Assembly (NCBI RefSeq): GCF_000063445.1 | Contig: NC_009464.1 | Coordinates: 1,922,001 to 1,986,000 of the forward strand | Source: Methanocella arvoryzae MRE50 | GTDB taxonomy: Archaea > Halobacteriota > Methanocellia > Methanocellales > Methanocellaceae | DNA: 64,000 bases | Direction: 5' to 3' | Shown here: one piece after another, positions 22,576-50,256 of the stretch | Layout: each line of letters opens with the position of its first letter | How positions within the stretch are numbered: position 1 is the stretch's first letter | Notes under the pieces: model-generated | Database searches by the model: none | What the model was told of the DNA's origin: nothing | The model's input: the letters and a program-made list of their open reading frames with translations, nothing else | Made by a program: the position numbers and the translations under genes

Positions 22576-23346
22576 TTATAAAACTCTGAGCAGTGCCTCA
22601 ACCATATCCTCGAAGGTAAACCGCTCAGGCACGGCGTCGACCCTGATGCCGCTCTTCTTGAGGAAGTCGGCGGTCGGGTGGCCGATCACAGCCACTTTCT
22701 TAGAGTTGATCTCGCGCTTCAACGGATCCAGCACGCCCATGGACTCGCCCATCATGAGCAGGCTTCTCGCTGTCATAGTGCTGGTGAACGTGTAGGCGTC
22801 GATCCTGCCTTCGAGGGCTTCTCTGACGAACGCTGCCTGTTCCTCGCCCTTCAGGGGCACGATGTCGTAGACGATGATCTCCCTGACCTTCGCGCCGCCG
22901 GCTTCCAATCCTGAGATTAAAATCGGGTTGCCATGGTTGCTGCGGAGCACCTCGACTCGTTTGCCTTTCAGCTTAGCGCAGAAGTCCTGCACCAGGCCTT
23001 CGCTGGAAAAGGTGCCGGGCATCTGTAGGTGGGTGATGCCCCGCTCAGTCAGGACGCTGTTAGTCCTGGGGCCGATGCCGATGACCTCTACAGAGTTCAG
23101 CTGCTTCGTCAGCGCAGCCGGATCCGGGGCTTTATCGTAGATGAACTGTACCCCGTTCTGGCTGGTGATGATGACCGTGTCTGCCTCGCCGGCCTCCAGC
23201 CTCTTGAAAAAGGCTTCGAGGGCGCCGTCGTTCCGGGGGATCATCTCCATCATGGGCACGGGCACGGCTTCGAGGCCTTTTTCTTTTAATATCCTGACTG
23301 TGTCGGGCAGGAACTTTCTCGGCCTGGTGACCGCTATTCTTTTCAT
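22576..23346 (-). CDS. hemD: Uroporphyrinogen-III synthase
   Basis: HemD closes hydroxymethylbilane with inversion of ring D to give uroporphyrinogen III. The 256-residue protein begins AVTRPRKF, contains VIITSQNGVQFI in the first half and YTFTSTMTARSL in the second, and has the two-lobed pattern of this poorly conserved family. It is the last gene of the tetrapyrrole operon and overlaps cobA by a few bases. Confidence 0.95.
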   Translation of the reverse strand: MKRIAVTRPRKFLPDTVRILKEKGLEAVPVPMMEMIPRNDGALEAFFKRLEAGEADTVIITSQNGVQFIYDKAPDPAALTKQLNSVEVIGIGPRTNSVLTERGITHLQMPGTFSSEGLVQDFCAKLKGKRVEVLRSNHGNPILISGLEAGGAKVREIIVYDIVPLKGEEQAAFVREALEGRIDAYTFTSTMTARSLLMMGESMGVLDPLKREINSKKVAVIGHPTADFLKKSGIRVDAVPERFTFEDMVEALLRVL

Positions 23347-24086
23347 CCGCCGAGCACCTCGTGCATCCTGACGACGTCGCCGACTACCACGATGGCGGGG
23401 GCTTCCACGCCTCTCTTCTCCGCTAACTCGACGATGGTGGAGAGCGTGCCGATTGTGACCCGCTGCCCGGAGGTCGTGCCCTTCTCCACGATGGCCACCG
23501 GCGTGTCCCTGGCTTTACCGTTGTCAAGGAGCGCTTTGACGTTGTCCCTGAGGCGGCTGACGCCCATTAAAATGACTAAAGTGCCGTTCATCGCGGCGAG
23601 CGATTTGAAGTTCAGGGCGCTTTCTCCCTTAGTGGGATCTTCGTGCCCCGTGATGAAGGTGACTGAAGATGCCAGGTCCCGGTGGGTGACGGGTATGCCG
23701 GCTGCTGCAGGGGCTGCGATGGCAGAGCTGATGCCGGGGATGACCTCGAACTCGACATTGTTTTTCGCCAGCTCTTCAGCCTCTTCTCCTCCTCTGCCGA
23801 ACACGTAGGGGTCTCCTCCCTTCAGCCGGGCGACGATGCGGTGCTTTCTGGCCTGCTCCACCAGCATCCGGTTCATCTCTTCCTGTGGCACTGTATGCTT
23901 GTCCGCCCTCTTGCCCACGTCGATGAGTTCCGCTGCAGGGTTGAAGTACTGCCTGATGCCGGGGCCGACTAAAGCGTCGTACAGGATGACGTCTGCCTGC
24001 CCGAGGATTCTCACTGCCTTCACAGTGATCAGTTCCGGATCGCCCGGTCCGCCGCCTATAAGGTACACTTTTCCAGTCGTAGGCAT
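23343..24086 (-). CDS. cobA: Uroporphyrinogen-III C-methyltransferase
   Basis: The enzyme methylates uroporphyrinogen III twice with SAM to give precorrin-2, the branch point to siroheme, F430 and cobalamin. The N-terminal GGGPGDPELITVKA, the LKGGDPYVFGRGGEEAEEL block and GTLVILMGVSRL are diagnostic. The 247-residue length shows a single-domain enzyme without a fused HemD or CysG part. A GTG at 24089 is an alternative start; hemC ends within the overlap. Confidence 0.97.
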   Translation of the reverse strand: MPTTGKVYLIGGGPGDPELITVKAVRILGQADVILYDALVGPGIRQYFNPAAELIDVGKRADKHTVPQEEMNRMLVEQARKHRIVARLKGGDPYVFGRGGEEAEELAKNNVEFEVIPGISSAIAAPAAAGIPVTHRDLASSVTFITGHEDPTKGESALNFKSLAAMNGTLVILMGVSRLRDNVKALLDNGKARDTPVAIVEKGTTSGQRVTIGTLSTIVELAEKRGVEAPAIVVVGDVVRMHEVLGG

Positions 24087-34327: not shown

Positions 34328-34894
34328 TTAAAGCCACCGGGCAGAGACTTTCGACACATCCATCTCTAAGCCGCCCATCGTAGCGTAGACTCCCAGTGCC
34401 CTGAAGCAGTCGTTCAGCGCGTTGTGGCCGGGCAGGGCCCTGATCTTCTCGCACTGGATGGAATCGGCGTAGTGGTCAAGCTTCGCGTAGGGCTTCGGCT
34501 GCATCTCGATCCAGCTCAGGCCCGGCTGCCTGACTCCGGTCTGCTTGAACAGCTTATCGACAAAATACCTGTCAAACTTGTGGTTCCACGCCCCGGCAAA
34601 GGTGAAGCTGTGATTGCTGTGGAGCGTGAGGAACTTCCGGCAGACCTCCTCCGGGGCAGGGGCGGCGGCCACCTGCTCAGGGGTGATGCCGTGGACGAAA
34701 AAGGTATCCTCCGCCATCGAGGGGTCGGGAATGCGGATGAGCGAATCCATGCAGTCCCGGCACTCTATCCTTCTCGCCTCGAGGTCGATATCGGCGACCA
34801 GCATGCCGATGCTCAAAGCGTAATCCTCCCGGCGCTCTTTTCCGAAGATGCCGAGGCCCGTAGTCTCAGTATCGATGACGCATATGGTAACCGT
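34328..34894 (-). CDS. DnaQ-like 3'-5' exonuclease, ACG start inferred
   Basis: The Exo I motif VIDTETTGLG is the most diagnostic part of this protein and lies upstream of every ATG, GTG or TTG that could precede it: an in-frame TGA sits at 34907-34909. An ACG at 34894, 5 nt after a GGCGGGG purine run, gives MVTICVIDTETTGLG and a 188-residue protein. Later motifs are GAWNHKFDRYF (Exo II region) and ALPGHNALNDCFRAL (Exo III, H-x4-D type). It is probably a proofreading-type or RNA-trimming exonuclease. The substrate is unknown. Confidence 0.82.
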   Translation of the reverse strand, partial: TVTICVIDTETTGLGIFGKERREDYALSIGMLVADIDLEARRIECRDCMDSLIRIPDPSMAEDTFFVHGITPEQVAAAPAPEEVCRKFLTLHSNHSFTFAGAWNHKFDRYFVDKLFKQTGVRQPGLSWIEMQPKPYAKLDHYADSIQCEKIRALPGHNALNDCFRALGVYATMGGLEMDVSKVSARWL

Positions 34895-34999
34895 GATATC
34901 CCCGCCTCATACGCTTGCTACGCAAGTGATCGGGTGTGGGAATATTAATCATTGCGGTGCCGGTGACCTATCATATGGCCAGCTACGGCACACTGTGAA

Positions 35000-35150
35000 A
35001 AATTCTGGACCCGGGAGGTACTGAGAGGATAAGCGAGGAGGCCCGGGAGGCCTCTGGAGGTGTGAGAGGTCGTTCAAAGTGGGAGGTCCCGGAGGACGGG
35101 GGAGGTCTGGGAGGAGGTTATGAGAGTTACCCGGAGGCCCGGGAGGAATC
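35000..35150. repeat. GGGAGGTC/CCGGGAGG degenerate repeats (family D, partial)
   Basis: The 310-bp gap between the exonuclease and HEAT-repeat genes contains many copies of a GGGAGGTC-type motif, all in one orientation. Fuller palindromic copies lie at 52797 and 55002. No gene is present. Confidence 0.7.
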
Positions 35151-35220
35151 ATTGTAATAATCTAATCACCTGTGGGGTTCACCGGACGGCCAGGCACCTT
35201 TTACACGAAGTAAGCTTCGA

Positions 35221-47308: not shown

Positions 47309-49090
47309 TCACCCTGTCCTGATCGTGTGGACGGCGCAGGAGACGCAGGGGTCGAACGAGCGGATGATGTGGTACAGGCTGATCGGGTTGACCTCCGAGC
47401 CGGGTATGTTCCCGCGCGGGGTGGTCTTGGCGCCGATCAGGGACAGCTCTATCGGCCCGAACTTGGTCTCGGCGTCCCGGGGCGAGGCGTTCCATGTGGT
47501 CGGGGAGATGATCTGGTAGCCGGCGATCCTTCCGTCCTCGTCCAGACGCATCCAGTGGCCGAGGGCTCCCCGAGGCGCTTCGATCATGCATGCCCCGGCC
47601 TCTCCGCGGCCGGGGGTGACCGGTACACAGTACTTCCTCGGGTCGGAGTGGACTTCTAGGTCGTCGATCCACCTGCCGAGCAGCTGCGCGGTGATCAGGC
47701 ACTCCTGCATGCGGGACAGGACTCTGGTGTAGACGCTGGTCCTGTTGTAGCTTTTGCCGCTCGAGAATACAGGGTTGCTGAAATGCATCATCTGCATGAT
47801 GTTCATGATGTAGGGCTCTCTGGAGTTGATCATCCTGGCCAGGGGTCCTGTTTCGCAGGGCACGTTGCCATACCTGGGCGCCTTGACAAAGCTGTACTTA
47901 TGCCCCGAGTAGTCGATGTCTGCCGCTCTGGGGGAGGGGGATGTCTCTCCGGCCTCAGGCTTCAGGGCCGTCTCACCACCACTGTAGGAGAAGAATGAGC
48001 CGCTTACCTGCTCTGCCACCATTGCGGGGTCTGCTTTTCCGGGGCTGTCGAAGAGGTTGGGCATGCTGCCCGGAGTGAATCCGGAGGGGATCTCGAAGGT
48101 GCCTTCCTCGCCGTCCACCGGGGAATAGCCGTCGGTAAAGTTGCCGGCCCTGTCCCTGACCCTGTAGAACCCGCCGTAGTTCAGGAACCCGATCAGCTGA
48201 TCGTACAGCGGGTAGCCGCCCAGCGTATCCAGCTCAACGTAGATGGGCATGGACAGGAAGTCATAGCTCATCATCCGGGAGCAGAACACCGAGAAGAGCT
48301 GCATGTCATTCCAGCCCTTCTCCATGGACAGGTCTCCGGTCGGGAGGGATTTGATCCGGTTGAGGATGAAGTCGGGGTTAGCCTGCGTGCTGTGGGTGTT
48401 CTCGAGCCACTCGTCCAGCGACAGGGGGTAGGTGAGCCGCCTCTCCAGGAAGTCCACGATGCTGGCGTAGCATCCTTTGAGCTTCATGAGGTCTGAGGCG
48501 GAAGGCCGGACCGTGACGCCTCCCGGCACAATTACCGGGGAGTGAGGGGAGCGTCCGCCCAGAATGGCTTCCGCCTCTCCCGTGAGCTTGACGAACCTGA
48601 TCGCGTCTGTATACGCCGACCCCGGGGCCGTATGTCCTGTAGACGCGTAGCCGGGCACGTTGAACCTGCCGGCCAGCTCTCCGGTCAGGGCGGTGCCCAC
48701 GTCGGAATACCTGAGGAGATCGCCGTAGATCGGGTCCGCCAGGTCAGGCAGGAACGACAGGTACAGGTTCTCCACGTGGCTGCGCAGCCATGCCAGGCCG
48801 TTCAGGATGTTGCGCACGAGCAGCGCATCCTTCGGTATCTGGCCTGTAGCCCCGGCCAGGCTCTCGACTGCCCCGGCCGCCGCCGTGGCGTGGGGCGTCG
48901 AGCACATGCCGCACACCCGCTGGGTAAAGTATACTGCGTCCATGGGGTCCCGGCCGATCATCATCTGCTCGAAGCCCCGGTAGGTGGTGCCGGAGCACCT
49001 CGCGTCGACGACCGAGCCGTCTTTCATCTCCACCGAGACCCGGAGCCCACCCTGCGTCCGGCTTACCGGGTCTATATCTATCCTGACCGT
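47309..49090 (-). CDS. vhtA: [NiFe]-hydrogenase large subunit, ACG start inferred
   Basis: The nickel ligands are present in RVCGMCSTPH and near the C-terminus in DPCVSCAVH. The first standard start, GTG 49033, lies inside the conserved fold. The upstream frame encodes RIDIDPVSRTQGGLRVSV, which aligns with the invariant DPVTRIEGHLRIEV of the family. The only plausible start is ACG 49090, six nt after AGGAGGGG and overlapping the small-subunit stop as TAACG. In the motif, Glu of RxEGH is replaced by Gln and His by Gly. The tail after the last ligand is only five residues. It should oxidise H2, but the Gln raises doubt about proton transfer. Confidence 0.9.
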   Translation of the reverse strand, partial: TVRIDIDPVSRTQGGLRVSVEMKDGSVVDARCSGTTYRGFEQMMIGRDPMDAVYFTQRVCGMCSTPHATAAAGAVESLAGATGQIPKDALLVRNILNGLAWLRSHVENLYLSFLPDLADPIYGDLLRYSDVGTALTGELAGRFNVPGYASTGHTAPGSAYTDAIRFVKLTGEAEAILGGRSPHSPVIVPGGVTVRPSASDLMKLKGCYASIVDFLERRLTYPLSLDEWLENTHSTQANPDFILNRIKSLPTGDLSMEKGWNDMQLFSVFCSRMMSYDFLSMPIYVELDTLGGYPLYDQLIGFLNYGGFYRVRDRAGNFTDGYSPVDGEEGTFEIPSGFTPGSMPNLFDSPGKADPAMVAEQVSGSFFSYSGGETALKPEAGETSPSPRAADIDYSGHKYSFVKAPRYGNVPCETGPLARMINSREPYIMNIMQMMHFSNPVFSSGKSYNRTSVYTRVLSRMQECLITAQLLGRWIDDLEVHSDPRKYCVPVTPGRGEAGACMIEAPRGALGHWMRLDEDGRIAGYQIISPTTWNASPRDAETKFGPIELSLIGAKTTPRGNIPGSEVNPISLYHIIRSFDPCVSCAVHTIRTG

Positions 49091-50256
49091 TACCGACCCC
49101 TCCTGCTGCGCTTTTCAGACAGCTTCTCCTCGTCGCCGTCGCCTTCGTTATCGTTGTCCCCTATCGCGAGGCGTTTTACCGCGTGGACGCCCGCCCCGAG
49201 AATGGCGGCGCCCAGGATCACCTTGGCCCCGAGGTCGACGTTGGTGCCTGATATCAGGCTCCTGTCCTCCACCCTGTTGAAGAAGGGCATGAAAGCGCCC
49301 GGGAACTCTGCTTCGACGCAGCCCACGCACGGCCCGCCTGCGAGGGTGCAGGTGCTTACCCCGCCGTTCCACCTTCTGACAGGGCAGTCTGCGTATGTGA
49401 TCATACCTTTGCAGCCCGCGCCGTAGAGGCAGCCTTCGCCTGCAAACTGCGTATCTCTCTGCCCCTGATCGTAAGAGCCCCGTCTCGTACAGGTATCGTG
49501 GATGGCGCTCTTGCTGAAGAAGGCCGCAGGCCGGCGATAATCGTCCACCGTCACCTCTGCGCCGGAGAGCACGTCGGCCAGCGTCAGCAGGAACCAGTCG
49601 GGGTGCGCGGGGCAGCCCGGGACGTTGATCACCTTCTTGCGCATGTTCAGCTCGCTCAGGATGCCATTAAAACGGGAGGCGCCCGTATAAGCGACGCCGC
49701 GGGCGTCGGTGACGCTCCGGCCGGCCGAGGAAATGCCGCCGAAAGCGGCGCACGTTCCCAGCGCGATGATCGTCTCGGCCTTCTCCGCCGCCTCGGAAAA
49801 GATCTCCTTCACCGCCCGGCCGCCGGTGGTGCAATACTTGCCGGTGCCATCAGGGCCGTTAGGAATGGCGCCCTCGACCACCAGCACGTAGTCGCCCGAA
49901 TCGATGAGCAGGTCGAGCTTCTTGAGCGCATTGTAAGTGTCGGGAGTCTTGGACACGCCGTCGAGGGTGATGCCTTGCTGGGCCATGAGGCCGTCGTGAT
50001 ACGTAATCACCGCTCCAACGCTGTCGAGGGCCGCCAGCACGTCCGGGTACCCACCGTTCAGGAACGAGGCAGTACACCCTCCGCAGCCCGAGCCCCTCAG
50101 CCATAAAAGCTTCTTTCTGGAGTCCGCGATCGCGGCGGCGACGCCTGGGCTGTGCATTGCGAGAAAAGCGGCGGCTCCGGTCGTAGCGGCCAGTGCAAGA
50201 AACGCTCTCCTGCCCAGCCCCGGCAATACTGGGCCGTCCATTTTTTCTCCCGTCAT
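49090..50256 (-). CDS. vhtG: [NiFe]-hydrogenase small subunit with Tat signal
   Basis: The 388-residue protein has a twin-arginine signal (GRRAFLALAATTGAAAFLA) and the proximal-cluster motif WLRGSGCGGCTASFL. Further cluster cysteines lie in GCPAHPDWF, CTRRGSYD, GEGCLYGAGCKG and GGPCVGCVE. A C-terminal hydrophobic helix (about 336-356) can anchor it, followed by a charged tail. Three Fe-S clusters carry electrons from the NiFe site to cytochrome b. tatC lies immediately upstream on the same strand. Confidence 0.95.
   Translation of the reverse strand: MTGEKMDGPVLPGLGRRAFLALAATTGAAAFLAMHSPGVAAAIADSRKKLLWLRGSGCGGCTASFLNGGYPDVLAALDSVGAVITYHDGLMAQQGITLDGVSKTPDTYNALKKLDLLIDSGDYVLVVEGAIPNGPDGTGKYCTTGGRAVKEIFSEAAEKAETIIALGTCAAFGGISSAGRSVTDARGVAYTGASRFNGILSELNMRKKVINVPGCPAHPDWFLLTLADVLSGAEVTVDDYRRPAAFFSKSAIHDTCTRRGSYDQGQRDTQFAGEGCLYGAGCKGMITYADCPVRRWNGGVSTCTLAGGPCVGCVEAEFPGAFMPFFNRVEDRSLISGTNVDLGAKVILGAAILGAGVHAVKRLAIGDNDNEGDGDEEKLSEKRSRRGR

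Follow-up and report, generated by a model that had tools for sequence, protein, structure and literature searches.

The locus considered here raises the question of which codon starts the translation of a DnaQ-like exonuclease gene of Methanocella arvoryzae MRE50, located on the minus strand of the 64,000-nucleotide stretch of DNA analyzed in this work (hereafter, the window). A preliminary description of this locus had proposed that the catalytic Exo I motif of the encoded protein can be reached only from an ACG codon.

The exonuclease frame and its start region

The frame (positions 34906-34328, minus strand) is open for 192 codons; its coding region, when read from ACG, spans 34328..34894, with the stop codon TAA at 34330-34328. 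The product falls within the Pfam RNase_T family (PF00929; E = 1e-9, 39.6 bits versus the curated cut-off of 24) and harbors the motifs DTE (Exo I), NHKFD, and HNALND, with the DEDDh residues D8, E10, D108, H157, and D162 invariant in four homologs. Judged from its sequence, the frame is a real gene for an intact DEDDh (RNase_T/DnaQ-like) exonuclease, the activity of which is predicted.

The codons of the minus strand (TGA 34909-34907, GGC, GGG, GAT, ATC 34897, ACG 34894, GTT, ACC, ATA 34885, TGC, GTC, ATC, GAT, ACT, and GAG) showed that all the coordinates given in the preliminary description around 34885-34909 are right: the frame is closed upstream by TGA (34907..34909), and ATG, GTG, and TTG are all absent before the VIDTETTGLG motif. 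The canonical starts nearest to the 5' end are TTG (34814..34816) and ATG 34804, both downstream of this motif; the mechanical list of open reading frames begins the gene at TTG 34816, which deletes Exo I. Hence, translation has to begin 5' of the motif for the product to include Exo I.

Close relatives of the protein (E <= 1e-10) were retrieved only from Methanocellaceae, that is, from 3 of the 295 genomes of the phylum. They include homologs in genome G002 (~55% identity) and in M. paludicola (G003, ~45%), as well as a paralog in the M. arvoryzae genome itself (G000:C1:3145556, ~44%). The G002 gene is a syntenic ortholog, being flanked by the same MoaB-like and DNA polymerase D large-subunit genes as the window copy, and a gene with a metallo-beta-lactamase fold (judged by eye) adjoins both the G003 gene and the M. 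arvoryzae paralog (L007 3851-6123). The exonuclease is missing from G001, a genome of the same genus, where the MoaB-like and PolD neighbors are kept, and is therefore dispensable. A single-protein scan of genome contigs did not retrieve any relative, an alignment scan retrieved only distant DnaQ-like proteins (25-32% identity), and probing the PDB sequences gave no match at E <= 0.001.

The alignment with close homologs, proposed at the outset as a check, was informative about the start. In codon register, the window gene begins with ACG GTT ACC ATA TGC GTC ATC GAT, the G002 gene with ATG GTA ATT TTA AGC GTT ATC GAT, the G003 gene with ATG ACC TTA TTA TGT GTC ATC GAT, and the M. arvoryzae paralog with GTG GAA TTC TTG ACC GTT GTT GAC. 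The canonical starts of the three homologs (ATG, ATG, and GTG) align exactly to ACG 34894 (34892..34894), which therefore lies at the ancestral start position. Of the two findings that, taken together, had been named as arguing against the ACG start, namely, homologs with ATG and a sequencing error revealed in this genome, the former was observed, in G002 and G003; the latter is considered below.

A purine-rich, Shine-Dalgarno-like run had also been placed 5 nt from ACG. A GGGG does end there, but the better match is GAGG (34905..34908), 10 nt before ACG; this core is weaker than those of the three homologs, which have AGG at 8-9 nt. Further upstream, the TATA-like promoter element AATGATTAATA (34943..34953) is common to the window and G002, with 11 identical bases at a nearly equal distance (about 56-59 nt) from the start, and an AT-rich box lies at a comparable position in G003 and the paralog. 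The intergenic region upstream of the exonuclease (35000-35160) contains many repeated CCGGGAGG-like units.

Two further genes with a probable ACG start

The frames of the window were compared with the contigs of G001 and G002, and 38 of them had homologs. A second putative ACG start emerged in the gene for a [NiFe] hydrogenase large subunit (PF00374; 47309..49090, minus strand, read from ACG 49090-49088). The Shine-Dalgarno motif AGGAGG (49099..49104) lies 8 nt before this ACG, and the TAA stop of the gene upstream (49090..49092) overlaps it by one base; the resulting TAACG corresponds to the common TAATG stop-start overlap, with ACG in place of ATG. The window gene begins with AGGAGGGGTCGGTA ACG GTC AGG ATA GAT ATA GAC CCG, that of G001 with ATG GTC AGG ATC GTG ATC GAC CCG, and that of G002 with ATG GTC AAG ATC ACC GTA GAT CCG; the G003 gene (ATG AGG ATC ACC ATC GAC CCG) is one codon shorter, its ATG lying one codon later. 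The first canonical start of the hydrogenase frame, GTG 49033, is beyond the conserved DPVxRxxGGLR stretch, and the N-terminus predicted from ACG is (M)VRIDIDPVSR.. A different frame (22576-23514), also with apparent conservation before its first canonical start, was discarded as the shadow of an overlapping gene, its true start being ATG.

A third case, a ubiX-like gene (G000:C1:124746), ranked first of 11 when 476 kb of the genome were scanned for frames in which coding signal precedes the first canonical start. This gene, single copy in M. arvoryzae, has GGAGG, a spacing of 7 nt, and then ACG AAC CGC AGA ATA GTC ATC, with no in-frame canonical start; its N-terminus predicted from ACG is (M)NRRIVIGITGASG.. 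In the sister species G001, the assembly of which is independent, the codon is likewise ACG; GGAGG is again spaced by 7 nt, and the stretch of 25 codons that reaches to the in-frame stop lacks a canonical start. The genes of G002 and G003 have ATG CAA AAA AGA at the position of ACG. The M. arvoryzae and G001 proteins share 77% amino acid identity, and the identities at the three codon positions are 0.83, 0.92, and 0.54; the frame is therefore under constraint. The final codons of the gene upstream, which read Leu-Arg in M. arvoryzae and G001 and Leu-Cys in the species with ATG, overlap the ACG and may partly hold it in place.

The exonuclease, hydrogenase, and ubiX genes all lack a canonical start able to give the conserved N-terminus, and, for each of them, homologs carry a canonical start at the corresponding position (one codon later for the G003 hydrogenase). 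The Shine-Dalgarno spacing is normal in the hydrogenase gene, at 8 nt, and in ubiX, at 7 nt; the GAGG of the exonuclease, at 10 nt, is weak. The non-canonical codon is kept between species in ubiX (M. arvoryzae and G001); the hydrogenase has ATG in G001, from which the exonuclease gene is absent. The proposal of ACG 34894 as the exonuclease start is thus supported by the exact match of the homolog starts, by the similar spacing of promoter-like and Shine-Dalgarno elements, by the lack of signs of decay, and, in addition, by the two other ACG-start genes of the genome, one with ACG in the sister species too. This recurrence lifts the exonuclease case above a curiosity.

Proposed initiation at ACG and competing explanations

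The reading that we consider fairly probable is that the exonuclease is translated from ACG 34894 through near-cognate decoding by the ordinary Met-tRNAi, the same tolerance serving the hydrogenase, ubiX, and, apparently, CTG and ATA starts. Translation of some M. arvoryzae proteins probably begins at a codon that gene finders reject. ACG 34894 would have arisen from a canonical start of the ancestral gene, in the simplest case from ATG via a single T-to-C transition. The Shine-Dalgarno-like sequence just upstream would place the small ribosomal subunit at this ACG, and the ordinary initiator Met-tRNA (anticodon CAU), the use of which we infer, would accept it despite the middle-base mismatch; initiation here would yield the N-terminus MVTICVIDTETTGLG, with the Exo I site intact. 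The same tolerance would allow the ACG starts of the [NiFe] hydrogenase and ubiX and, apparently, CTG or ATA starts elsewhere in Methanocella, and a stop-start overlap perhaps aids initiation in two of the three ACG genes. Expression of the exonuclease is probably low because both the codon and the Shine-Dalgarno sequence are weak.

The initiator tRNA of M. arvoryzae is ordinary, with a CAU anticodon, A1, and three G-C pairs in the anticodon stem, and tRNA-Thr(CGU) is elongator-like. No altered initiator with a CGU anticodon, which would read ACG, turned up among the tRNAs resolved by ARAGORN, which left a few, probably intron-bearing, tRNA matches without assignment. In vitro, aIF1 destabilizes initiation complexes on a non-AUG mRNA (PMC6237735); therefore, near-cognate starts should be inefficient.

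A different start within the same region, the near-cognate ATC one codon 5' of ACG (34895..34897), would add one residue to the protein and leave the Exo I motif unchanged. GAGG lies 7 nt from this ATC, close to the usual spacing in the genome, versus 10 nt from ACG, and near-cognate ATA/ATC starts are apparent in another Methanocella gene. The starts of the homologs, however, align to ACG instead, and neither the hydrogenase nor ubiX has an ATC or another near-cognate codon at the position neighboring ACG, which makes this start unlikely.

It is also unlikely that the ACG represents a recent loss-of-start mutation, leaving either a young pseudogene that is hardly translated, if at all, or only a catalytically dead protein made from TTG 34816 or ATG 34804. 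The absence of the gene from G001 and the paralog in the same genome imply that its loss is tolerable, and its Shine-Dalgarno sequence is weaker than in the homologs. Nevertheless, the frame has no stop, frameshift, loss of catalytic residues, or acceleration, and the upstream elements remain. Six changes are private to the window protein at sites where the other three homologs agree (L-I, V-I, V-A, V-I, L-M, and one deletion), the five substitutions being conservative, and the relative-rate counts against G002 are balanced (16 versus 13 and 17 versus 14); there is no sign of decay in its sequence. Moreover, the hydrogenase and ubiX argue that an ACG at the start is not tied to gene decay in the genus.

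An error of sequencing or assembly, the true codon being ATG or a spurious base lying in the G-run, appears very unlikely. The relatives do carry ATG, and the MRE50 sequence was assembled from the metagenome of an enrichment before the strain had been isolated (PMC3328440). Such errors would, however, have had to strike start codons repeatedly, in a second gene of the same 64 kb and in ubiX, and the ubiX ACG is present in the independent assembly of G001. Overall, the two further ACG genes, with one ACG in an independent assembly, render both a sequencing error and a dead gene less likely. Finally, two other routes appear extremely unlikely. One is C-to-U editing of the mRNA to AUG, known for chloroplast ACG starts. 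The other is +1 frameshifting from the overlapping 14-codon ORF in another frame (34866..34910, minus strand), which was rejected as a translation source: a shift at its end would lose the catalytic Asp, its ATG 34910 lies over the Shine-Dalgarno sequence, and the homologs show no such N-terminal extension.

Apparent near-cognate starts in Methanocella, and known systems

The association between start-like codons and Shine-Dalgarno sequences was analyzed in stretches totaling 1.28 Mb (~40% of the genome; 1,061 predicted genes). Near-cognates of ATG with a coding signal following had a normally spaced Shine-Dalgarno sequence in excess over other codons (11/215 versus 25/1571; odds ratio 3.3), with p = 0.0023, a value that is indicative only, as the near-cognate set was picked after the first cases had been seen. 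The excess was not significant without the coding filter (p = 0.17), nor was it for ACG alone in the codon-by-codon test (2/30, p = 0.12). The statistics specific to ACG are weak; the case for this codon therefore depends on the homology seen in three genes.

Several other loci showed non-canonical codons at apparent starts. A gene with no assigned function (L144:5870, minus strand; L209, L200, and L206) has an apparent ATA in M. arvoryzae, G001, and G002 and ATC in G003; the gene for a LGIDIGGANTKAA-type protein (L127:15408, plus strand; L184, L210, and L201) has an apparent ATA in M. arvoryzae, CTG in G001, and ATG in G002 and G003. A CTG start is probable at L123:4436 (minus strand), with ATG nearby in relatives, and an ATA start is probable for an MMPL-like exporter (L152:5604, minus strand). 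In M. paludicola, CTG-start candidates with good Shine-Dalgarno sequences occur at L171:12552 and L006:5344 (both minus strand), one response-regulator-like protein being included. A fourth possible ACG start (L125:17429, minus strand) has GAGGT at 8 nt, 19 codons to the next canonical start, and a weak coding signal. Lastly, a 133-codon frame of EPEYPEPEYP repeats (L119:18614-19015, plus strand) has no canonical start at all.

The gene for translation initiation factor 1A (aIF1A; in M. arvoryzae, L124:3101+ = G000:C1:743100) has an apparent CTG start about 7 nt after the Shine-Dalgarno sequence (e.g., GAGGTGATAAACTG) in all four Methanocellaceae genomes. Among 30 aIF1A loci across the phylum (L213-L242), a mechanical score assigned a CTG start to 18; the remainder included several with TTG, and none of the 30 had ATG with a Shine-Dalgarno sequence. 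Autoregulation of the kind associated with the AUU start of infC is possible for this gene. Methanocella seems to use CTG and ATA starts as well. We tentatively suggest, with less than even confidence, that near-cognate starts (ACG, CTG, and ATA) are a standing, low-frequency feature of translation in Methanocella, perhaps in more of the phylum, and that the level of aIF1A, the gene of which has CTG or TTG as its start codon in most of the genomes analyzed, helps to set their extent, in analogy to the AUU start of bacterial IF3.

Since ACG is not normally accepted in prokaryotic annotation, genes such as those for the exonuclease and the hydrogenase subunit, as well as ubiX, would either be overlooked or be annotated in a shortened form lacking N-terminal motifs that are catalytic or conserved. 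With one ACG start common to two species, the discrimination of start codons in archaea can be tested directly: the relatives offer natural ATG/ACG pairs, and ubiX, present in single copy, is a test case. A literature search of partial coverage did not retrieve any paper on ACG starts in archaea or on CUG starts of aIF1A.

As for the known systems, chloroplast ACG starts, which are corrected by C-to-U editing of the mRNA, resemble the present genes in that the DNA reads ACG in place of the expected AUG, but direct decoding is the simpler reading for Methanocella. Bacterial infC starts with AUU, and eukaryotic CUG and ACG starts exist; the likeness lies in a non-canonical start codon with supporting context, whereas here the organism is an archaeon, the codon is ACG, and the genes are metabolic and nuclease ones. 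The GTC start of sigR is a further instance of bacterial near-cognate initiation (PMC5472188). The exonuclease resembles RNase_T/DnaQ-like DEDDh exonucleases (PF00929) in its Exo I DTE, Exo II Asp, and Exo III HxxxxD, but its subfamily was found in Methanocellaceae only (3/295 phylum genomes). A review of archaeal translation names AUG, GUG, and UUG as start codons, and the terms "ACG" and "non-AUG" are absent from its text (PMC7531240); the initiation described there is led by the Shine-Dalgarno sequence, with aIF1, aIF1A, and aIF2, and the Methanocella genes would share this route but begin with ACG.
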